DNA of 64,000 bases, from assembly GCF_000620045.1 (NCBI RefSeq), contig NZ_JHVH01000008.1, positions 62,001 to 126,000 on the forward strand. Reading direction: 5' to 3'. Position 1 is the first letter of the stretch, and every line of letters starts with the position of its first letter. The position numbers were made by a program, and so were the translations under genes. Shown here in pieces: positions 7,138-63,756 of this stretch. This stretch comes from Halomonas halodenitrificans DSM 735 (GTDB taxonomy: Bacteria; Pseudomonadota; Gammaproteobacteria; Pseudomonadales; Halomonadaceae). The notes under the pieces are model-generated. The model was not told the DNA's origin. It saw nothing but the letters and a program-made list of their open reading frames with translations, and did no database searches.

Positions 7138-9159
<2,022 letters not shown>

Positions 9160-9229
9160 GGTGACTCCGCGTAGTTACTCCAGGTCGTGCAACGGCCCCG
9201 GCGGGCGTTGCCGAACACTCGACCCCGGA

Positions 9230-9646
9230 TCAGGCCGGCGTCACGGCCCGCGTGCTTACCTCCACCGTGGCGCTGGTCATCAAACGGTGGATCGGGCACT
9301 TGTGGCTGATGTCCTCGAGGCGCGCGATCTGTTCCGGGTCGGAAATACCGTGGAAGTTCATCACCACCTCGAGGCGATAGGTACCCTGGCGCTCCTCGCT
9401 GTCATCACGGTGTACCTTCACGCTGATTCCCTCGAGGGGCCACTCCTTGCGGCGGGCATACATCATCGAGGTAATCGCCTTGCAGGCACCCAGCGACAGA
9501 TCGAAGTAGTCGTGAGGGTCGGGGGCCGTCTCCTCGCCGCCATAGGCCTCCGGCACGTCGACAAACAGATCTTCGAAGTCATCGAGTTCCACTCGTTGAC
9601 GAAAGATATGGTTGCGTACGCTCTCGATCTCAATGGTCTTCTTCAT
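9230..9646 (-). CDS. OsmC/Ohr-family protein
   Basis: A 138-residue OsmC-fold protein. The two conserved cysteines are present in GACKAITSMMYARRK (near residue 54) and HKCPIHRL, the layout of thiol-dependent peroxidases that reduce organic hydroperoxides. It is closer to the YhfA-like OsmC subgroup than to classic Ohr, so the physiological substrate is uncertain. Start 9646 has GGAGAG eight bases upstream. It lies just upstream of uvrB on the same strand with a 70-bp gap. Confidence 0.85.
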   Translation of the reverse strand: MKKTIEIESVRNHIFRQRVELDDFEDLFVDVPEAYGGEETAPDPHDYFDLSLGACKAITSMMYARRKEWPLEGISVKVHRDDSEERQGTYRLEVVMNFHGISDPEQIARLEDISHKCPIHRLMTSATVEVSTRAVTPA

Positions 9647-9898: not shown

Positions 9899-10034
9899 GA
9901 CGTGACTCCTGGCTGGCATGGATCAAGCGGCGAGTCTAGCACGCCCCGGCCCCGGACAGCAGCGGTTGCAATGTCGCACCGGCGCCCACATGTATCGGGT
10001 ATACCAACACTTTTCCCGATACGACGAGGCTCTC

Positions 10035-54212: not shown

Positions 54213-55445
54213 TCAAATAAGTTTAAGCGGCTCGATATCGCGAAAGATTCCAGTCTTGGTCATGTCGCGGCGCAGGGTAAAGGTTTCCAGGGCAGCCACC
54301 GGGTCGACCCGGTCGAGGCTGTCGAACTGAATCCCCTCCCACTGCTCCCGGGTGACCTTGACGCTGTAGAGGTACTGTTCAAACTCGCCACCGGTGGCCG
54401 GGTCGATAGCCTGGCGATAGCCCGAGACGCGCGCCTCCTCGACCCCGGGCAGTCGGGCAAACACCGCCCCCAGCACGCGAAAGGCGATGCCGTGCACGTG
54501 GTCACGGTAGAGCTCGCGCTGGCGGGTGGCACTTAACCGGCGAGGCGAAAGCTTGAGCTGCTTGGGCGGCATGGCCCAGTACTGATCCGGTATTTCCCCT
54601 TCGCCGGGCAGGTCGATATCCACCGCAATGGTCGAGATATCGCTGCCGAGGTCGAAATCGACCAGCGTTTCCCGCGGCCACTCGATTTCCTCGAGCCGTT
54701 CGCGCAGGGTGGCCTCCATGGCATCCGGATCATCCCACACCCCATCGCTCTCGCGGCGGAACCGGGAGAACTCGGCGGCATCGTGTTCGGCCTTGCGCCA
54801 CTCCCAGGCGCGGTAACGCTCGTCAAACTCCGTCTTGAGGCGGGCATTGCGCGCCTCGAGGCGGCGCCGGGCCGGTGGCCACAGCGTATGCCACCATGCC
54901 GGCGGTTGTGGCTGGAACGGCGGCGGAGGCGCCTGGGCAAACTCACTGACCACATAGCCGTTGGATTCGGGTGATGGCGTCTGTTCATGCAGCCGACCCA
55001 GCCGGTCGAGATCCGCATTCAGCCGGTCGCAATAGGCCTGCAACTGCTCGCGCAGGCCCTGCTCGGCGTGGCGGCGCACGACTCTTGCCTCGGCATCGCT
55101 CATGGGCGTGCCATCGCCGTGGAAGTAGCGAACCTGGCCGCTGTCGTCGACTTCCAGCGCTACCGCCAGGCTGCCACCTTTGCCCAGCAGCGCCTCGAGG
55201 TTCGCGGCTTCGCTGCGCCGGGAGCCACTCGCTCCCTTGCGCTGGCCTTGTGCCTTGCCGCTGCCATCGAGCTTCCGGCGATAGGCCAGGCCGGTACAGG
55301 GTACCCCCGCATGCCCATGCACACCACCGGGCCCCACGCTGAGGCTGGCCCCCCGCGGCCCCACGGAAAGGCCGAGCCCCCGCTTGCTGAGATTGAGGCG
55401 AACGCCGGGCGCCAGGCGGATACGGCGCTGGAAACGAAAGGCCAT
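54213..55445 (-). CDS. DUF4236-domain protein
   Basis: A 410-residue protein. The first 55 residues match DUF4236: [38 protein letters not shown] and the [10 protein letters not shown] end, a small glycine-rich beta domain. The rest has long charged helices (about 125-240) and a C-terminal domain with [31 protein letters not shown]. Function is unknown. The start has an AGAGA upstream of ATG 55445. It is downstream of rmuC on the same strand with a 70-bp gap. Confidence 0.75.
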
Positions 55446-55515: not shown

Positions 55516-56949
55516 TTAACGCTCGTCCCCGGTGGCCGATTCCACCTCCGGTGCGGGAGCGACGGTTCCCACTTCCAGCCTGGCCCGCTCCAGCACCTCC
55601 GCGGGGAGTTCCTTTTTCACCGCCACACCCAGCTCACGAAACTCGCTGGCCTGCTTGACCAGGTTACCGCGGCCGTTGACCAACTGCCCCAGCGCCTTGT
55701 CGTAGCTTTCTCGAGCGCCGTCGAGCTTCTTGCCCACGTCCTGCATGCTCTCCAGAAAGGAGGCGAGCTTGCTGTGAAAACGCTCGGCTTTCCTGGCCAG
55801 TTCGGCGCTGTGGCGACTCTGGTTCTCGAACCGCCAAAGCTGGCTGACGATGTTCAGGCTGGTGAGCAGCGTGGTGGGTGTGGCCACCAGGACGTTGCGC
55901 TCGATGGCCCGCTGATAGAGGGTCGCATCGTGGCGCAGCGCCTCGATATAGGCCGACTCCACCGGAATAAACATGATTACCACTTCCGGGGAGTTAAGGC
56001 CCGGCAGGTCATAGTAGTGCTTGTCGGCCAGCTCCTCGATGCGTGCGCCCACGGCGCTGGCATGGTCGGCCAGCGCCCGCTGGCGGACCCACTCATCCTC
56101 GGCGTTGACGTACTCGAGATAGGCGGCGAGTGAGGTCTTGGCGTCGATCACCAGATGACGCCCCTCGGGCAGGTAGACCAGCGCATCGGGACGACGCTTG
56201 CCCTGCTCGGTAGTGAAGCTCTTCTCGCGCTGGTAGTCCTCCCCCGCGCGTAGCCCCGCACTGTCCAGCACGTTCTCCAGCATCAACTCACCCCAGTTGC
56301 CCTGCACCTTCTTCTGCCCCTTGAGGGCTTCGGTCAGTTGGGCGGCCTGGTCGGTGATATCGCGATTGAGCTGCTGCAGGTGCTTGAGCTCGGTGGTCAG
56401 GCTGGCCCGCTGGGCGGTCTCCTGGGTATGCAGGGTCTCGACCTTGTCGCGGAAACCCTTGATCTCCTCCTGGAACGGCTTGAGCAGCCCCTCCAGGCTG
56501 CGCTCGGAGAGGGATGTGAAGGCCTTGCCCTTCTGCTCCAGCAGCTCGTTGGCGAGATTCTCGAACTCCACCTTGAGCTGCTGTTTGCTGTCTTCCACCC
56601 AGGCCAGCTGACGGGCGAAATGGGCCTCCTTCTCTTCCATCCGAGTGGTCAGCTCGCCGTGGGTCTGCTTGAGCGCATAGTAGGCGTCACGGAAGCGATC
56701 GAGTTCGCGGGCCCGGGCCTCGACGGCCTCGCGTTGAGTCTCCACCTCGCCCTCCGCCACCTGCAACGCCACCGCCTGTTCCCGGCCTTCCAGCTGCTGG
56801 GCGTGAAGCGCATCCCGTGCGGCATCCAGCTCGCGGCGAGTGCCGGTGATCCGACCCTGCTGGAGGGTAAAGGCGGCCAGAAAGCCCAGTAGAAGCGCTA
56901 TCAGGCCGGTCATGACATGCTGCATATCGAGCTGTTGGAGGAGTTCCAC
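55516..56949 (-). CDS. rmuC: DNA recombination protein RmuC
   Basis: A 477-residue RmuC protein. One N-terminal helix (VMTGLIALLLGFLAAFTL) is followed by a long coiled coil (about 40-220) and the RmuC core with QGNWGELMLENVLDSAGL, PDALVYLPEGRHLVIDAK and PEVVIMFIPVESAY. The DxK-type residues in the latter suggest a nuclease-like fold; RmuC limits recombination at inverted repeats. The GTG at 56949 has a weak Shine-Dalgarno; ATG 56925 and 56913 are alternatives. It starts 74 bp after the Mks operon ends. Confidence 0.93.
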   Translation of the reverse strand: MELLQQLDMQHVMTGLIALLLGFLAAFTLQQGRITGTRRELDAARDALHAQQLEGREQAVALQVAEGEVETQREAVEARARELDRFRDAYYALKQTHGELTTRMEEKEAHFARQLAWVEDSKQQLKVEFENLANELLEQKGKAFTSLSERSLEGLLKPFQEEIKGFRDKVETLHTQETAQRASLTTELKHLQQLNRDITDQAAQLTEALKGQKKVQGNWGELMLENVLDSAGLRAGEDYQREKSFTTEQGKRRPDALVYLPEGRHLVIDAKTSLAAYLEYVNAEDEWVRQRALADHASAVGARIEELADKHYYDLPGLNSPEVVIMFIPVESAYIEALRHDATLYQRAIERNVLVATPTTLLTSLNIVSQLWRFENQSRHSAELARKAERFHSKLASFLESMQDVGKKLDGARESYDKALGQLVNGRGNLVKQASEFRELGVAVKKELPAEVLERARLEVGTVAPAPEVESATGDER

Positions 56950-57023
56950 GGTAGCGTTATCCGAATAGGGAATTCAGGGTGTGACGGCGTCAAGGTGCCG
57001 ACTCAGCGAGACATGACAGGCCG

Positions 57024-57920
57024 CTAGGCATGGAGCGCTATCCGCTCCCAGTGCTCGGCGCTGCCCAACCACTGTTGACGCAGGCCCCGCTGCTCGCCCA
57101 ACAGAATCGCCAGGGGGCCGACCAGCGGGTGCCCGTCGGGCAATCCGGCGGCGTGGGCGCGCAGTCGTGGCTGGTCGCCGAGTTGCTCGGCCGGCTGGTG
57201 CTGGGCATTGGCCCGCTCGGCAAGCATGGCCAGCGGCGGTATCAGCAAATGTGTGGCGCCGCTTGAAAGCGCGAGCCCCACTCCCTTGGCATCGAAGTCG
57301 CCCAGGTAGAGATGCGGCTTGCCGCCTCGGGCCCAGGCCTCGGCCAGCCTGGCGAAGCCGCCGCTGTAGTGGTAATCGCCACGGTAGAGCACCAGCACGG
57401 CGCCCCAGGGGTCCAGCGCCGGAATCGCCGGCGAGACGTCATAGAAACCATCCAGGTTCTCGACCTGCACCAGCGCCTCGAAGGCGTCGAGATCGATATC
57501 GCGCCAGTCGACATCCACCATCTCGCGCTCGCGCTCGATCAGCCCGGCTCGCTTACCCTGCCCCGGCAGGCTGGCCAGCACCCGCTGCTCCCGGGGCGTT
57601 TCGCGCACCGGCTTGGCCTCGCGATTGCCATACGCCGCCTGCTCCGCCGTGCTCAGGCCGGCGAGGTCGACGGCCAGGGCGGGCTCGCCCAGGTCGACCA
57701 GGGTCTCGTCGATCCGGCCGAGCAGCTCGGCGTCCAGCCGCAGGTGACGATGGGAGAGCCGCGCCCCCAGCTCGATGTCCTGGGCCTGACACCAGTCGAC
57801 GATGGCGTTGATGACGGGGCCACGCCTTTTCTCGATACTGGGTCGAGTCGCCAGCTCCCCGAGGGTATCGCGGAGCAGATGACGAGCGCGGTTGGATAGC
57901 AACATCTTCGATAGCAGCAT
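57024..57920 (-). CDS. mksG: Toprim nuclease-like subunit of the Mks/Wadjet system (MksG/JetD type)
   Basis: A 298-residue protein, last in the Mks operon. An N-terminal winged-helix-like part is followed by a Toprim-type core: Glu154 in VQVENLDGF and the DxD-like Asp208/Asp210 in LYLGDFDAKGVG, the metal-binding layout of topoisomerase VI-like and JetD nucleases. In Wadjet systems this subunit cuts DNA that the SMC motor has looped. ATG 57920 has GAGG six bases upstream and lies 7 bp after the kleisin stop. Similarity to known JetD is by motif, not search. Confidence 0.72.
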   Translation of the reverse strand: MLLSKMLLSNRARHLLRDTLGELATRPSIEKRRGPVINAIVDWCQAQDIELGARLSHRHLRLDAELLGRIDETLVDLGEPALAVDLAGLSTAEQAAYGNREAKPVRETPREQRVLASLPGQGKRAGLIEREREMVDVDWRDIDLDAFEALVQVENLDGFYDVSPAIPALDPWGAVLVLYRGDYHYSGGFARLAEAWARGGKPHLYLGDFDAKGVGLALSSGATHLLIPPLAMLAERANAQHQPAEQLGDQPRLRAHAAGLPDGHPLVGPLAILLGEQRGLRQQWLGSAEHWERIALHA

Positions 57921-57927
57921 GGAAACC

Positions 57928-59163
57928 TCACGCGAGTTGCACGACGACGTCGTGGATCAGCCTCAGATGATTATAGGGGCTGGCCTGGGTTTCCTGCTGG
58001 CTCAGGCGAAAGGCGCGCTGTTCGTTGCGGGGCAGTCCCTGGAACTCGGCGATCACCTGGAACAGCCAGATCTCCTCGTCCCATTCAAGCTCGCCTGCCT
58101 GCCGATATTCCAGGGCGCTCAGCGCCTCGTCGCCGTCCACCACCGCGAGATAGAAGCGCTCCACCTCCTCCTTGAGCGCCTGTTGGCGTGCGGCGACCCG
58201 GGCGTCTTCCTGGGGGGCGGCAACGCCGGCGGCGGTTACCGGCTCCGGACGCGACGCGGGCCGCGGCAGCCGATGCAACAGCTCGGTGAGCGCGCGGCTA
58301 TCGGGATGGTGATCCAGGGCGGCGGCGCCGGCGGCGACCAGCGGCGTGGCCTGGTTGACCAGCGCCGGCACCTCGCCGCGCCGGGCATAGTTGCCGGGCA
58401 CGAAGCCGGGATGCTCGCGCAGGAAGCCGGCCATGCCGGCCACCAGGCGGCTGCGCGACTGCTGCTGGCGGAAACGCGCCATCAGCTCGACCAGTCGCCG
58501 CTGCACCTCGCGCAGGCTGGTGTAGTGCTGGGTCAGCTGATGCTGCAGGCCGCTGACCAGCAGCTTGCGCAGGGCGCCGTCGCTGCCCACCAGCTCGATC
58601 AGCTCGTCGAAGTCGATCAGTGCCAGGCCATCGAGCAGGCGCACGATCTGCTTCTGGGCGCGCTCATTCTCGCGGATCTTGTCGCCCAGGCGGCTGACGA
58701 AGCCGAAGTCGCCGTTGAAGCGTCGCCACAGGCTATCGATGGCGTCGGCGAAGCGGCCGTTGAGGTCATCCACCTCCTGGCGAAGCCGCAATAGCTGCTG
58801 CTCCTGGCGCCAGTACTCTCCACCGTCCCGAGCCTCGCGGTAGCTCTGTACCAGGCTGCGCAAGAGCTCCAGGGTCTCGGCCACATCGGCGTTGACGTGG
58901 CGGCGACTCTCGTCCGCGAGCATCTCGGCGACCAGCTCACGCACCTTGGGGGCGAGCTTGACCCCGCCCTGCTCGTCCGGGCGCCACAGGATGCGCGCCG
59001 CCAGCAGCCGATTGAGCGCCGTGGTGCTGAGCGTCTCCACCGGCACCTCATCCCGGGCGTAGCCGGCCATCAAGGCCTCGGCGTACTTGCCGAGCAGCGC
59101 CAGCCGCTCGACCCCGGTACTGATCAGGCGGCTCTCCAGGGCGTGTGAAGGGGCGTCGCTCAC
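57928..59163 (-). CDS. mksF: MksF/JetA-like kleisin of a condensin-like complex
   Basis: A 411-residue protein. The start has a winged-helix look (VETLSTTALNRLLAARILW). Long helices follow at 90-250 (AETLELLRSLVQSYREARDGGEYW, then QQLLRLRQEVDDLNGRFADAIDSLWRRF) and end in a C-terminal winged-helix-like region. This is the pattern of bacterial kleisins that bridge the two SMC heads. The GTG at 59163 overlaps the mksE stop (GTGA), so synthesis is coupled. Assignment rests on gene order and secondary-structure pattern. Confidence 0.7.
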   Translation of the reverse strand: MSDAPSHALESRLISTGVERLALLGKYAEALMAGYARDEVPVETLSTTALNRLLAARILWRPDEQGGVKLAPKVRELVAEMLADESRRHVNADVAETLELLRSLVQSYREARDGGEYWRQEQQLLRLRQEVDDLNGRFADAIDSLWRRFNGDFGFVSRLGDKIRENERAQKQIVRLLDGLALIDFDELIELVGSDGALRKLLVSGLQHQLTQHYTSLREVQRRLVELMARFRQQQSRSRLVAGMAGFLREHPGFVPGNYARRGEVPALVNQATPLVAAGAAALDHHPDSRALTELLHRLPRPASRPEPVTAAGVAAPQEDARVAARQQALKEEVERFYLAVVDGDEALSALEYRQAGELEWDEEIWLFQVIAEFQGLPRNEQRAFRLSQQETQASPYNHLRLIHDVVVQLA

Positions 59164-59858
59164 AGCAGGCTCTCCTGGCCGCTCGGCGCCTGGTCATCCA
59201 CCGGCAGGTTCTCCTCGTCGCGGATAAAGCGAACCAGGTCGATAAGGTAGTCGACCTTGGCGGTGACCAGGTAATACTGGCGATCGGCGTGGGGCTGAAG
59301 CAGATAGCCATGCTCCTTGAGCCGCTTGAACACCTGCTTGAGCTGGGCGTCGAGCTGGTCGCTCTGGGAGCCGAAGAAGGGGTCGCTCGCCAGGCGCTCC
59401 AGGCGTTCGCGCAGGCCCTGGTGGTCCTCGCAGCGAGAGCTGAAGTCGGCGGGCTTGAGCACATCACCGGGGGCGGCGGGGCCATCCCGGCCCAGCGCCT
59501 CCTGCACCAGCTGCAGCCACTCCAGCAGCGGAAGCAGGCTGTTGACGGTCTCCGCCAGCTGACGGGAGAGTTGTTCCCGGGCGCCTTCATCCAGGGCGCG
59601 CCAGGCCAGGAAGACGACGCTTCCCTCGTGATTGGTGGCCAGCCGCCGGTTGAGCGGGCGCAGATAGGCATCGATCTGCTCCCGCGTCGCGTCATCCTGC
59701 AGGTGGCGAAACGCGCCTTCGTCGCTGACCGCACAGATAAACTCGCCGGCCAGCAGCCGCTCGATCAAGGGCCCATGGCTCACCAGGGAGCGCCCGAGCT
59801 CATGGCCTTCCGACCGTTCAGCCTCGCCGGCCGTCGCCGGCTGGATCGCTTCGCTCAT
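59160..59858 (-). CDS. mksE: MksE/JetB-like subunit of a condensin-like complex
   Basis: A 232-residue protein with tandem winged-helix-like segments, as in KITE subunits (MukE, MksE, JetB) that bind kleisin. Recognisable parts are LIERLLAGEFICAVSDEGAFRHLQ in the middle and LDAQLKQVFKRLKEHGYLLQ with YYLVTAKVDYLIDLVRFI at the end. ATG 59858 overlaps the mksB stop (ATGA), with GGAGG seven bases before. It is second in the four-gene operon. The call is supported by context rather than a diagnostic motif. Confidence 0.7.
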   Translation of the reverse strand: MSEAIQPATAGEAERSEGHELGRSLVSHGPLIERLLAGEFICAVSDEGAFRHLQDDATREQIDAYLRPLNRRLATNHEGSVVFLAWRALDEGAREQLSRQLAETVNSLLPLLEWLQLVQEALGRDGPAAPGDVLKPADFSSRCEDHQGLRERLERLASDPFFGSQSDQLDAQLKQVFKRLKEHGYLLQPHADRQYYLVTAKVDYLIDLVRFIRDEENLPVDDQAPSGQESLL

Positions 59859-62800
59859 GATGCCACCTCCTCGGCGCGGGCCTGCAGACGCTGGGCCAGG
59901 CGACTCAGGCGCGGCTCGATTCGCTTGAGCCGACGCTGAGTGGGCTCCGCCGCGTCGCGGTCGATCAGGTAACGGTTGTGAAACAGCAGCAGCACGTCCG
60001 ACTCCGGGTTGGGGAAGGCGCCGACGATATGGATACGGTTGTTGTCACAGGCGTCGAACAGCTTCTCGACGTTGTGATAGGCCAGGGTGCCGATCTCGTC
60101 GATGGGCCAGTGAATGGCGATCTCGGCCGGGCCACGCAGCAGCCGGGTAAAGGCGAGCAGGAACTTGCACAGGATCAGATAGGCCATGCCGTGGCTGGAG
60201 GACTCCAGCAGCTGGCGATCGTTGCGGATGACCAGGTCGGTACCGCCCTCGTTGAGGTGCAGCTCCAGGCGCAGCAGGCTCTCGAAGCTGTACTGCTGGT
60301 CGCTGCGCAGCAGCTCCACCACGTCGGCCAGGGTGTCGAGATAGTCGTCACCGGGGAGCGGCTGGCCGGAATCACGCCACTCGCGGTAGCGCCGGGAGAA
60401 CCGCTTGAGCGGCTCCCAGAAGCCCAGCTCGTCGATGGTGGACTGGATCTTCACCTCGGCCCGGCCGATGCCCTCGAGCTTGAGGTCGTCGGCCACCTCG
60501 TCCGACAGGCGCCGGCTCTGGGCGCTGATGCGCCGGTTGAGGTCGCTGAAGACGGTGAAGAACTTGTCGAGATCGTCGGAGAGGTTGCGCCCCTCCTGCA
60601 GCAGCTGTTCCTGCTGGCCTTCCAGCAGCTTGAGCATGCCCGCGATCACCGGCAGCAACCGGCGCGGGCTCTCGCCATCGAGTCGGGCCCGTTCGGCCTC
60701 CAGGGTGTCCTGGAAGTCGGCGCTGGCGCCCTTGATCAGCTCGGATTCCAGCGTCTCGCAGCCGCGGCGCAGGGCCTCCAGCTCACGCCCATGATCGGTC
60801 AGCCCCTGGCGCAGACGCTCGATACGCTCCTGGGTGTCCCCGGGCGCCTCGCCGAGAGGCTCGGGGGCCGCCGCCAGGGCCAGGGCCTCGAGCTTGTCGA
60901 GCAGTGGCGCCAGGGTCTCCACCAGCGTTTTGGCCGCATCCCGGCGGGCCGTGAGCTCGCTCGCCGCGGCTCGATATTCGTCCCGGGCGGCATGAAAGTC
61001 GGCCCGATGCTGGTGGCGCCGGCGCTCCAGGGCATCGCGTTCCCGGGTGAGCTCGGCGTCCTTCTCCACCAGCCGCGGCTTGCGTTCCCCCCACTCCACG
61101 CGCATGAAGCGCGTATAGGCATCGAGCTCCTCGCGGCGCCCCTCGGTGTCGCGAATGCGCCCGGCCAGCGCCTCCATGCGTGAACGCGTTTCCCGCACGC
61201 TGACCGGGTCGACGCCCTGCTCCGCCAGCTCCCGGTCGAAGGCCGCGGTGAGCTCATCACGCTGCAGGCGGTGCTCCTCCTTGTGCTCGGCCAGCTGACG
61301 CCGATGCTGCTGGACCTGCTGATCGAAGCCGGCCAGGCGGGCCTGGAAATCGGCAGTCAATTCGAGGCGCTGGGCACGGTGGCCGTCGGCCAGCGCCTCC
61401 AGCGCCTGGCGCTGCTCATCGCGCAGGGCCTGATGGGCGGCCTCCTGTTCCGCCAGCGACTCACGGCAGGCGGCCTGACGCGCCTTCTGGGCCGCCGCAT
61501 GGCGCTGCTGGCACTGGCTACGCGCCTGCAGGGCGTAATCCACCTCCTCGGCGGCCCGGCGACGCGCGGTACGGGCACGCTCGAGGCGGGCATCGGCCTC
61601 CTGGACCTTCTGGTGACCGGCCCGTAGCGCCTTCTCGGCCGCCTTCTCCTCTTCATTCGCCTCGTCCAGCGCCGCCTCGGCGGTGGCAATGGCGGCCAGC
61701 AGCTCGGCCTCCTCCTGGGCATCGTCGGGCGCGTCGATGGCGGCCAGGTCCAGCGTCAGGCCGAAGAGGTCATCGCTTGCCGTCTCGTTGAACTGGGGGG
61801 CGAGGTCACGCCGCTCCAGGAGCGCCGGCGCCACCACCTTGCCCAGGGTCTGCTCCCAGCCCGGGCGATGATGGCGCAGGAAGTGACGCAGGCTGCCCTG
61901 GGCGGGATCGCGCTGGACCTGAAGAGTCGCCAGCCGGGCCTCGGCGCGGGAGCGGCGGGCCCGGGCCCTCTCCAGTTCCTGTTCGGCGGCGTCACGCTCC
62001 TGCTTGCGCCCGTCGAGCTCGCCGCGCAGCTGCTCCATGGCCGCCGCGGCGGATGCCTGCTCGCTCTGGGCCTGATCGACCCGGACCTGGGCCTGCTCCG
62101 CCTCGCGGGCCTCCTCGGGGCTCTGGGCCGTATGCGCCAGCTGTGCCTTGAGCTCGGCCAAACGCGCCGTCACCTGCTCCAGGCGAGCGCGGTAGTCATC
62201 ATCCAGCGCCTGGCGGCGGGCCTGGTAGTCGGCGTCCAGGCGGCCCTCGGCATCGACCTGCTGGTCGCGGCAGGTGTCCTTCTCCTCACCCAGGGCATCG
62301 ATCAGCGCCTGGAGCTCGTCGCGACGCGCCTCGAGCAGGTCGCCGAGCTCCACCAGCCGCGCCTCCAACTTGGCCTTGCTCGCCTTGACCGCCTGTTGCA
62401 TCAGTTCCAGGTGGTCACGCAGCTGTTGTTGCTGTTCGCGCCACTGGGGCAGCGCCTTGAGGTCCTGCTCGAGGCCCGGCATATCGGCGGCCTCGAAGGC
62501 CTCGAACTGTTGCTGCAGATCATCCAGCACACCCCGGGTCTGGTCGAGTTCGCTGTCGAGCTCGCTGGCGCGGTCGTTAAAGGCGTCACGCTGCTCCCGG
62601 TAGGCGGCTTCCCGGGCCTGAAAGTCGCGCTGGCGCCGCTGAATCTCGGCCTCATGCTCGGCCCGGTCGCGCTCGGCGCGATGCCGATCGGCCTCCAGCT
62701 GGGGCTTCAACTGCCAGAGCGAGGCCTCCAGGTCGGCGATCTCGCGATCCCGGCGCTCCAGCTCGCCCAGCGAGCGCTGCAGGGGTTCCAGGCGCATGGA

Positions 62801-63532
62801 CTGGCGCATGCGGGCGATCCATTCCCGGGCCTTGGTGTTACGGATGCGGGTCACCGGCAGCTCGACGCCATCTTCCTCGAAGATCGCCGCCAGCATGGTC
62901 TTGAGGGTGTCCATCTTGCCCTCCTTGGCGTGTACCGCCGAGACCAGCTTCTCGATATGCCGGATGCGCTGGCCGGGGCGTACCAGGCTGAAGCGGGCGG
63001 CCACCTGACGCAGGCGCAGCCCCTCCTTGCGGTTGCCCCGGGGCTGGGTGCCCGTCTGGGTGAAGTCGTTCTGGATCACCGCGCGGTACTCGGAGGTGGC
63101 CCCCAGCTTGGGGGAGACCGACACGCCCCGCCGCCGCAGGCCGCTGGCCCACTGGGCGTAGTCCAGGGCCGTCACGCCGGCATCACTCTCGACCAGATAG
63201 TCCTCGGGGCGGTAGGCATCCCCCAGGAAGCGATACTCGACCCCACCCTCGCCGCGGCGGGTCAGCACCGCCTGGCAGACGTCTCCTTCCTCGCGGCGGT
63301 ATTCATACACGAGGTAGCTGTTGCGGTGCGGTAGATAGAAGGCGTCGAACTTGAGGCGCGTGCGCGGCACCACCCGGTTGGGCAATTCACCGTAGAACAC
63401 CGGCACCAGCCGCTGGAGGGTGGTCTTGCCCGAGGCATTGGTGCCGCAGATATTCGTGTGGCCCTCCACACTGAGTTCGACCACCCCCTCGAGGTGGCCG
63501 TGGATCATCACGATGCGTAGCAGCTGGCCCAT
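59855..63532 (-). CDS. mksB: SMC-like ATPase MksB/JetC
   Basis: A 1225-residue SMC-family motor. Walker A is GTNASGKT (30-37). Two long coiled coils (about 270-520 and 640-960) flank a hinge-like region. The C-terminal head has the signature SSSHGMAYLILC and Walker B IHWPIDEIG (Asp1145-Glu1146). Condensin-like MksB/JetC proteins use ATP to extrude DNA loops. Start 63532 (MGQLLRIVMI) has AGGG seven bases upstream; the frame reading back to 63589 adds non-homologous residues. It overlaps mksE by four bases. Confidence 0.9.
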   Translation of the reverse strand: MGQLLRIVMIHGHLEGVVELSVEGHTNICGTNASGKTTLQRLVPVFYGELPNRVVPRTRLKFDAFYLPHRNSYLVYEYRREEGDVCQAVLTRRGEGGVEYRFLGDAYRPEDYLVESDAGVTALDYAQWASGLRRRGVSVSPKLGATSEYRAVIQNDFTQTGTQPRGNRKEGLRLRQVAARFSLVRPGQRIRHIEKLVSAVHAKEGKMDTLKTMLAAIFEEDGVELPVTRIRNTKAREWIARMRQSMRLEPLQRSLGELERRDREIADLEASLWQLKPQLEADRHRAERDRAEHEAEIQRRQRDFQAREAAYREQRDAFNDRASELDSELDQTRGVLDDLQQQFEAFEAADMPGLEQDLKALPQWREQQQQLRDHLELMQQAVKASKAKLEARLVELGDLLEARRDELQALIDALGEEKDTCRDQQVDAEGRLDADYQARRQALDDDYRARLEQVTARLAELKAQLAHTAQSPEEAREAEQAQVRVDQAQSEQASAAAAMEQLRGELDGRKQERDAAEQELERARARRSRAEARLATLQVQRDPAQGSLRHFLRHHRPGWEQTLGKVVAPALLERRDLAPQFNETASDDLFGLTLDLAAIDAPDDAQEEAELLAAIATAEAALDEANEEEKAAEKALRAGHQKVQEADARLERARTARRRAAEEVDYALQARSQCQQRHAAAQKARQAACRESLAEQEAAHQALRDEQRQALEALADGHRAQRLELTADFQARLAGFDQQVQQHRRQLAEHKEEHRLQRDELTAAFDRELAEQGVDPVSVRETRSRMEALAGRIRDTEGRREELDAYTRFMRVEWGERKPRLVEKDAELTRERDALERRRHQHRADFHAARDEYRAAASELTARRDAAKTLVETLAPLLDKLEALALAAAPEPLGEAPGDTQERIERLRQGLTDHGRELEALRRGCETLESELIKGASADFQDTLEAERARLDGESPRRLLPVIAGMLKLLEGQQEQLLQEGRNLSDDLDKFFTVFSDLNRRISAQSRRLSDEVADDLKLEGIGRAEVKIQSTIDELGFWEPLKRFSRRYREWRDSGQPLPGDDYLDTLADVVELLRSDQQYSFESLLRLELHLNEGGTDLVIRNDRQLLESSSHGMAYLILCKFLLAFTRLLRGPAEIAIHWPIDEIGTLAYHNVEKLFDACDNNRIHIVGAFPNPESDVLLLFHNRYLIDRDAAEPTQRRLKRIEPRLSRLAQRLQARAEEVAS

Positions 63533-63654
63533 GTCGCGTCCCTGGTCGTTGGCATGCCCATCACCGGTCCAGTGCCGGTAAGCGCCCATGGTGCCGGAGG
63601 CGCTGCATCATCTCAATTGGGGACGGGTGATGACCCTCCCTGGTCGAGGACCCC

Positions 63655-63756
63655 CTAATCGATATAGGCCATGATGGCCTCATGTGCAGCAATCTGGGCC
63701 TCGGCTTCATGCACCAGGCGCTCGTATACTTCGCGGGATTCAATTGGCAGGGACAT
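63655..63756 (-). CDS. 33-residue microprotein upstream of mksB
   Basis: A 33-codon gene (MSLPIESREVYERLVHEAEA, then QIAAHEAIMAYID) starts at ATG 63756 with GGAGG seven bases upstream, the best ribosome site in this region. The product is one acidic amphipathic helix without a signal. It ends 122 bp before mksB. No family was recognised. It may be a leader peptide, a small subunit or an inhibitor of the SMC complex. A promoter was not identified with confidence in 63757-63938. Confidence 0.6.
   Translation of the reverse strand: MSLPIESREVYERLVHEAEAQIAAHEAIMAYID

Follow-up and report, generated by a model that had tools for sequence, protein, structure and literature searches.

A DUF3584-type Mks/Wadjet-like operon of Halomonas halodenitrificans and the recurrent absence of its Toprim gene among Halomonadaceae

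The window analyzed here is a stretch of 64,000 nucleotides (nt) from Halomonas halodenitrificans DSM 735 (contig NZ_JHVH01000008.1, positions 62,001 to 126,000), and coordinates refer to this window unless another locus is named. Four open reading frames (ORFs) on its minus strand, at 57024-63589, make up a condensin-like Mks/Wadjet operon that is transcribed in the order mksB-mksE-mksF-mksG and ends with a gene for a Toprim protein. Among related bacteria the Toprim gene has repeatedly been lost, and mksBEF remain open in these loci. The four genes are as follows.

59855..63589, minus strand: mksB, 1244 amino acids (aa) as listed, a DUF3584 SMC-type ATPase (PF12128, 771 bits)
59160..59858, minus strand: mksE, 232 aa, a KITE-like subunit (PF21980 MksE, 30.5 bits, cut-off 27)
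57928..59163, minus strand: mksF, 411 aa with a GTG start, a presumed kleisin (operon position and a weak MksF match)
57024..57920, minus strand: mksG, 298 aa, a Toprim protein of the DUF7281 type (PF23947, 40.1 bits, cut-off 27)

Overlaps of 4 nt join mksB to mksE (ATGA) and mksE to mksF (GTGA), in agreement with the original prediction of four minus-strand genes that overlap or nearly touch. The 7 nt that it placed between mksF and mksG hold for the listed mksG start, but the best alignment with relatives favors the ATG at 57905, five codons further downstream, as the probable start, and the gap then becomes 22 nt. The longest mksB ORF begins at 63589, and its conserved start is probably Met20 (63532), a residue that is nearly invariant in alignment A9. 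Thus, the upstream limit of 63756 that had been proposed for the operon falls outside mksB.

MksB matches PF12128 over positions 1-1190 of the 1191 in the model. This match (771 bits) and that of MksG to PF23947 (40 bits) are far beyond chance. The Walker A, ABC signature, and Walker B motifs that had been claimed for the SMC protein are all present and conserved across 89 Halomonadaceae loci. This set comprises the loci that carry mksB, mksE, and mksF; loci L031-L034 were dropped as duplicates, and L199 and L200, which lie at contig ends, were left out. The motifs were read in the window sequence at the following positions.

63422..63445, minus strand: MksB Walker A, GTNASGKT, residues 49-56 (88/89 loci)
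60188..60205, minus strand: MksB ABC signature-like motif, ESSSHG, residues 1129-1134
60095..60100, minus strand: MksB Walker B, D1164-E1165 within HWPIDEIG (89/89 loci)

Residues G49, N51, G54, K55, and T56 of Walker A are invariant in alignment A9, as are S1132 and G1134 of the signature-like motif in all 18 aligned sequences. The only locus without Walker A, L082, carries a split mksB. The signature-like motif is found in 87 of the 89 loci; it reads SSSHG as such in 83, and the other six have a variant or none.

For MksE, the family match is accompanied by a weak match to the PADLOC model JetB1 (expect value, E, 0.001; 17 bits), and the PADLOC JetC score of MksB is marginal (19 bits). MksF has no family match over cut-off in Pfam, PADLOC, or NCBIfam, and an NCBIfam scan of all four operon proteins returned nothing over cut-off. 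A weak N-terminal match links MksF to the MksF proteins of the FEB(G) type (31%, E 5e-4), and comparison with type I-like JetA gave none (0.4%). When searched singly against the PDB, MksF gave one chance match and MksB none, and the profiles of MksF, MksE, and MksB gave only coiled-coil or chance matches.

The Toprim protein was studied with two alignments, A1, composed of 32 hand-picked MksG matches, and A11, composed of 14 type I-like JetD proteins. Counts over 76 refer to the intact Halomonadaceae copies of MksG. Three sites of this protein are relevant to its possible activity.

57459..57461, minus strand: MksG Glu154, first Toprim acidic residue (32/32 in A1, 76/76 Halomonadaceae)
57291..57299, minus strand: MksG Asp208-x-Asp210, Toprim DxD (32/32 in A1, 76/76 Halomonadaceae)
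57072..57077, minus strand: MksG Gln282-Gln283, the second Gln standing at the place of a Glu in JetD and outgroup MksG

Comparison by hhalign of the MksG profile with the type I-like JetD profile gave a match of 97.1% with E 5e-11 over 163 columns, in which Glu154 aligns with the Glu-Asn of JetD. In a PDB search up to E 10, the A1 profile matched JetD 7til only (E 0.011, in the Toprim region), and the MksG sequence alone gave chance matches only. Moreover, JetD3 of a type III system in Halomonadaceae (L059) matches JetD_C over cut-off and, along an identical stretch, DUF7281 just below cut-off, a connection between the two domain names. The N-terminal CAP/DUF3322 domain of JetD has no Pfam match in MksG, where ~130 N-terminal residues precede the Toprim part. 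There is likewise no match to PF09983 (JetD_C) anywhere in this genome, MksG included, and the PADLOC Wadjet type I-III models match neither MksF nor MksG. AlphaFold2 modeling of MksG with five relatives (74-94% identical) was of low confidence, with a predicted local distance difference test score of 36 for the whole protein and 43 for its C-terminal 169 residues. At the level of sequence, MksG is a solid case of a Toprim protein, and its Toprim region is homologous to that of JetD. The Toprim-like arrangement of Glu154 and DxD suggested for the last protein is supported both by the invariance of these residues and by the JetD profile match, and nothing at this level indicates that the fourth protein lacks a Toprim fold.

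The order B-E-F is found in all 89 complete Halomonadaceae loci, with G following where it is present. The same order, with a like SMC protein, recurs in 7/7 complete loci from six other gammaproteobacterial families (L085, L086, L088, L089, L119, L120, and L121). In contrast, 22 of the 29 type I-like control loci searched have the full set of four genes, and each of these is F-E-B-D; within this control set, PADLOC typing applies to L131 alone, and the others were assigned by homology to it. Because the B-E-F order is common to all complete loci of the clade, it belongs to the DUF3584-SMC clade rather than to one genome, and the distinct subtype proposed from the order SMC-E-F-Toprim is upheld. 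The B-E-F(-G) order is the mark of a clade whose SMC is of the DUF3584 type and whose nuclease-like subunit is of the DUF7281 type. Split genes occur in two loci despite an intact mksG, namely mksB in L082 and mksF in L072.

DUF7281 was detected in 81 of the 201 Halomonadaceae genomes (79 over cut-off), and 91 of the 201 have a PF12128 match over cut-off. A class-wide draw of 369 genomes contained 13 with DUF7281 (11 over cut-off) and 10 in which PF12128 exceeded its cut-off. All 29 genomes searched for ScpB carry it, including that of H. halodenitrificans, and MksBEF is therefore an additional condensin. This genome also encodes a separate SMC_N protein of 1165 aa on another contig, C1.

Several relatives of these subunits have other arrangements. 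Three loci combine MksG of the DUF7281 type with SMC proteins of 917-956 aa, in the order F-E-B-G in L090 (9270-14759) and L094 (1174-6567) and in the order G-B-F-E in L095 (6618-12155); the F genes of these three loci are named by position. PADLOC is marginal for the SMC and kleisin of L090 and reports none for its MksG. Type III Wadjet is represented by L059 (8740-16543), where PADLOC recognizes JetA3, JetC3, and JetD3, and by L060 (7940-13617), where it recognizes JetD3 beside a 1481-aa SMC; neither genome has a PF12128 match over cut-off. A search of E. coli genomes with the Wadjet SMC of L131 found nothing.

Among the 89 Halomonadaceae loci, mksG is intact in 76, absent or reduced to a stub in 12, and truncated at 219 aa in one (L057). 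The distribution of mksG needs 10 changes on a FastTree tree built from concatenated MksBEF, and the starred branches force 9. Shuffled labels average 12.3-12.4 changes, and presence and absence are thus only weakly clustered. Alignment to G-bearing relatives distinguishes eleven different end states (L052; L053; L045 with L049; L054; L048 with L051; L050; L055; L046; L056; L047; L057). Changes on the tree alone could be gains or losses; it is the stubs and the collinear flanks that speak for loss. For example, downstream DNA is collinear with that of a G-bearing relative from approximately the end of mksG in 9 of the 13 loci (L045 and L047-L054), an in-frame mksG start persists in L048, L051, L052, and L053, and L057 retains the beginning of mksG. 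Any count of losses is tied to this tree and to the sample of 89 loci from 201 genomes. No DUF7281 match at E 0.001 or better was found in the 13 G-less genomes, in a search that also missed the truncated L057 copy. The mksBEF frames stay open in these loci, and Walker B is intact in 13/13.

The three-gene form is also found outside the family. Two genomes of family f141 (L119 and L120) carry BEF with no DUF7281 or JetD_C match. A quickly built tree, itself subject to long-branch warnings, joins the two on one long branch as the sister lineage of the main clade, with a support of 100 in the SH-like approximate likelihood ratio test.

A bacterial globin gene (PF01152, 101 bits in L049) replaces mksG in L045 and L049, its start overlapping the mksF stop, and L053 holds an apparent globin remnant, judged by eye. 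Conversely, L058 (genome G102) has an mksG-like ORF at 8558-9343 with no mksBEF within 17 kb and no PF12128 in the genome. Genomes G017 and G023 carry DUF7281 beside type III SMC proteins, with no PF12128 match, and the locus of G076 is cut by contig ends. Short remnants of mksG or mksB are present in L096 (8598-9023), L097, and L098 (8080-8472), and these might represent decay of whole loci.

The ratio of nonsynonymous to synonymous divergence (omega = dN/dS) was calculated by the Nei-Gojobori method with our own script, and the test set consisted of two G-less pairs, each with a common breakpoint. For L045/L049, omega is 0.054 for mksB, 0.030 for mksE, and 0.033 for mksF (dS 0.24-0.35), and for L048/L051 the corresponding values are 0.068, 0.043, and 0.036 (dS 0.25-0.40). 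The G-bearing comparison pair L068/L162 has values of 0.077, 0.051, and 0.085, with 0.234 for mksG. In the two shared-breakpoint pairs, therefore, mksBEF are under strong purifying selection without mksG. The 440 nt downstream of mksF are 94.3% identical in L045/L049 and 87.2% identical in L048/L051, which is in keeping with inheritance from one event per pair.

MksG itself diverges more than its partners. Among 404 G-bearing pairs with an mksB dS of 0.1-0.8, its dN equals or exceeds that of MksB in 388 and is smaller in 16; these pairs are non-independent. Median dN ratios over the 404 pairs are 2.30 for G/B, 0.67 for E/B, and 0.83 for F/B, and the omega ratio G/B is 1.79. Compared with the window locus, MksG identity lies 14-25 points under MksB identity in all 14 G-bearing loci whose MksB is 63-92% identical. 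Among type I-like systems with JetC at least 65% identical (nine pairs), JetD ranges from 6 points above to 10 points below JetC, and at lower JetC identity the gap reaches ~18 points. In three close pairs MksG shows purifying selection (omega 0.15-0.23). By these comparisons, MksG of this clade evolves faster than classical JetD at comparable distance without being a pseudogene.

A further difference lies near the end of the Toprim part, where RLEQE is invariant in 14/14 type I-like JetD proteins. According to one study, two glutamates of JetD, which correspond to E349 and E351 in MksG of C. glutamicum, are proposed nucleophiles (PMC10123090), and based on spacing the RLEQE pair probably represents them. 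Main-clade MksG proteins instead carry [RKL]QQ, with Q283 in 70/70. The final Glu is present in 6/6 group B Halomonadaceae proteins and in 12/12 of the combined outgroup and group B proteins of A1, as EQE in L090 and xQE in the others. All 13 Halomonadaceae losses of mksG fall within the QQ clade, and 0 among the 6 group B loci.

An M48 peptidase gene and rmuC flank the operon, which occupies the same position in L236, L240, and L032. RmuC was considered as a fifth component and rejected, since it is present in 19/19 genomes searched, falls within the analyzed stretch of only 5 of the loci L031-L098, and has no copy next to the operon of L031. In this close relative, rmuC (window 55524-56998) is absent near position 9924, and the flanking DNA is 94-97% identical. 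A gene for a DUF4236 protein is found downstream of rmuC on the same strand (54213-55445). A mobile or plasmid origin of the operon was also rejected, as a tblastn search of 72,556 plasmid records found no MksG; viral contigs, scanned by pattern with this MksG, yielded no relative.

How might these observations be reconciled? The matches to PF12128, PF21980, and the JetD profile bear out the view of a condensin-like Mks/Wadjet operon with a Toprim subunit. We lean toward an MksBEFG/Wadjet-like complex with a motor core that also serves a second purpose independent of the nuclease, probably chromosome organization. MksB would form a MukB-like SMC dimer that is closed by the MksF kleisin and joined by an MksE KITE dimer, and MksBEF presumably extrudes DNA loops by ATP hydrolysis. 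MksG would be a detachable Toprim subunit, presumably acting as a nuclease on small circles that are stalled or fully extruded. Because the motor has repeatedly survived the loss of its Toprim subunit and, in the pairs open to measurement, stays selected, MksBEF most likely has a further job, probably, by analogy with P. aeruginosa, organizing the chromosome beside SMC-ScpAB, and this role would explain why it is retained when MksG is lost. Plasmid cutting by MksBEFG is plausible on sequence grounds. Thus, the anti-plasmid defense suggested in the original prediction stands as a plausible function, but a purely anti-plasmid role fits poorly with the recurrent loss of mksG, the continued selection on mksBEF in two pairs, and the absence of a catalytic-candidate Glu.

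Several points weigh against a second role for the motor. The evidence for selection after loss comes from the two shared-breakpoint pairs only, and recombination occurs in the genus, as L049/L053 have an mksE dS of 0.02 and an mksB dS of 0.20, which makes transfer of a shared breakpoint conceivable. Downstream collinearity with the compared sister is lacking in L046, L055, and L056, where the absence of mksG need not reflect a deletion. Unpaired median omega values give no sign of weaker constraint on MksG than on MksB (0.128, n=212, and 0.146, n=408, from different pair sets). The median for MksB in pairs without G is 0.055 (n=15), from yet another pair set that makes the contrast unfair. 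The patchy presence in the family (PF12128 in 91/201 genomes) fits a defense system better than a housekeeping condensin. Plasmid markers fail to separate the two groups, as Rep_3 occurs in 1/13 G-less and 4/13 G-bearing genomes and Relaxase, in the opposite direction, in 4/13 and 1/13. Finally, the identity of MksF as a kleisin is presumed from operon position and the weak N-terminal MksF match.

One possibility is that the locus records a plasmid-defense SMC complex in the course of becoming a chromosomal condensin, with the Glu-to-Gln change fixed in the ancestor of the clade and at least nine independent nuclease losses following while the motor persisted in a cellular role. We offer this sequence of events tentatively, as it is somewhat doubtful in its entirety. 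It is rather unlikely that the operon is an ordinary anti-plasmid Wadjet subtype, with an active MksG, restriction as its sole selected function, and G-less loci that were recently disarmed and are heading for loss. JetD homology with E, D, and D intact would be expected of such a system, its patchy distribution in the family and the purifying selection on MksG in the three close pairs are in its favor, and the in-frame stubs in L048, L051, L052, and L053 suggest that some losses are recent. However, a relic motor should decay, and MksBEF instead have omega values of 0.03-0.07 in the shared-breakpoint pairs. The two f141 genomes that carry BEF and no G on a long shared branch also argue against recent disarmament.

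The same residue data could be read in another way, in which main-clade MksG no longer cuts plasmids but, with its metal site kept, serves a chromosomal condensin by nicking, by regulation, or by DNA binding alone. Q283 in all 70 main-clade proteins, set against Glu in the 12 outgroup and group B proteins, is consistent with this idea, because the glutamates at this place would be the proposed JetD nucleophiles if the equivalence from spacing holds (PMC10123090). The fast protein divergence and dispensability of MksG are as well. However, the role of the JetD glutamates is itself only proposed, and for MksG of C. glutamicum the same study also reports the use of Tyr258 (PMC10123090). In addition, E154, D208, and D210 are all kept, and a Gln fixed at this site may have a catalytic use of its own. 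Overall, we judge a non-cutting MksG to be improbable. Still more remote is a mixed cluster, in which MksF is no kleisin and the SMC and the Toprim protein work separately. The lack of an MksF family match over cut-off or of a type I-like JetA match would fit this arrangement, as would the presence of mksG with no detectable mksBEF in L058, but the four genes keep one order on one strand in 76/76 loci with intact G, and DUF7281 proteins also follow the SMC in the F-E-B-G loci L090 and L094. We prefer a Wadjet-like complex with a nuclease-independent function of its motor core.

The accessible text of a review proposes that chromosomal MksBEF derives from Wadjet by nuclease loss, and names no transitional case there (PMC10586767). 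Sister strains with and without mksG constitute natural pairs for a direct test of this proposal, and the fixed Glu-to-Gln difference provides a specific mutational handle on how the JetD Toprim cuts. Because the PADLOC models miss this SMC-Toprim operon, surveys built on them would overlook it. We found no paper on the DUF3584/DUF7281 clade in the literature covered, a coverage that excludes most subscription papers.

Compared with Wadjet type I, represented by C. glutamicum MksBEFG and P. aeruginosa PA14 JetABCD, the window operon likewise combines SMC, KITE, and Toprim genes, and the MksG Toprim part can be aligned to JetD over 163 columns with E, D, and D kept. However, the order is B-E-F-G rather than F-E-B-D, the SMC belongs to PF12128 with a marginal PADLOC JetC score, MksG is ~300 aa with no PF09983 match, and the final E of RLEQE is Q in main-clade MksG. 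Wadjet type III is connected to the clade through JetD3 of L059, which bridges JetD_C and DUF7281. In contrast, type III has an SMC of ~1480 aa and the order F-E-B-D in L059, and its SMC, kleisin, and JetD are fully recognized by PADLOC. The FEB(G) loci differ in having SMC proteins of 917, 936, and 943 aa (L090, L094, and L122), whereas the Halomonadaceae ORFs are ~1190-1280 aa.

The nuclease-free chromosomal condensin MksBEF of P. aeruginosa offers a second point of reference. Like it, the window operon has an MksE in PF21980 and coexists with SMC-ScpAB, and the G-less Halomonadaceae loci have the same three-subunit make-up. The gene order differs, being mksFEB(G) in Pseudomonas and B-E-F here. 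P. aeruginosa PAO1 has the order mksFEB. The order mksFEB(G) is given for Pseudomonas strains PA14 and KT2440 in PMC10123090. In P. aeruginosa, MksBEF is reported to organize the chromosome beside SMC (PMC7485682), and it is this role that the motor core of the Halomonadaceae complex may share.

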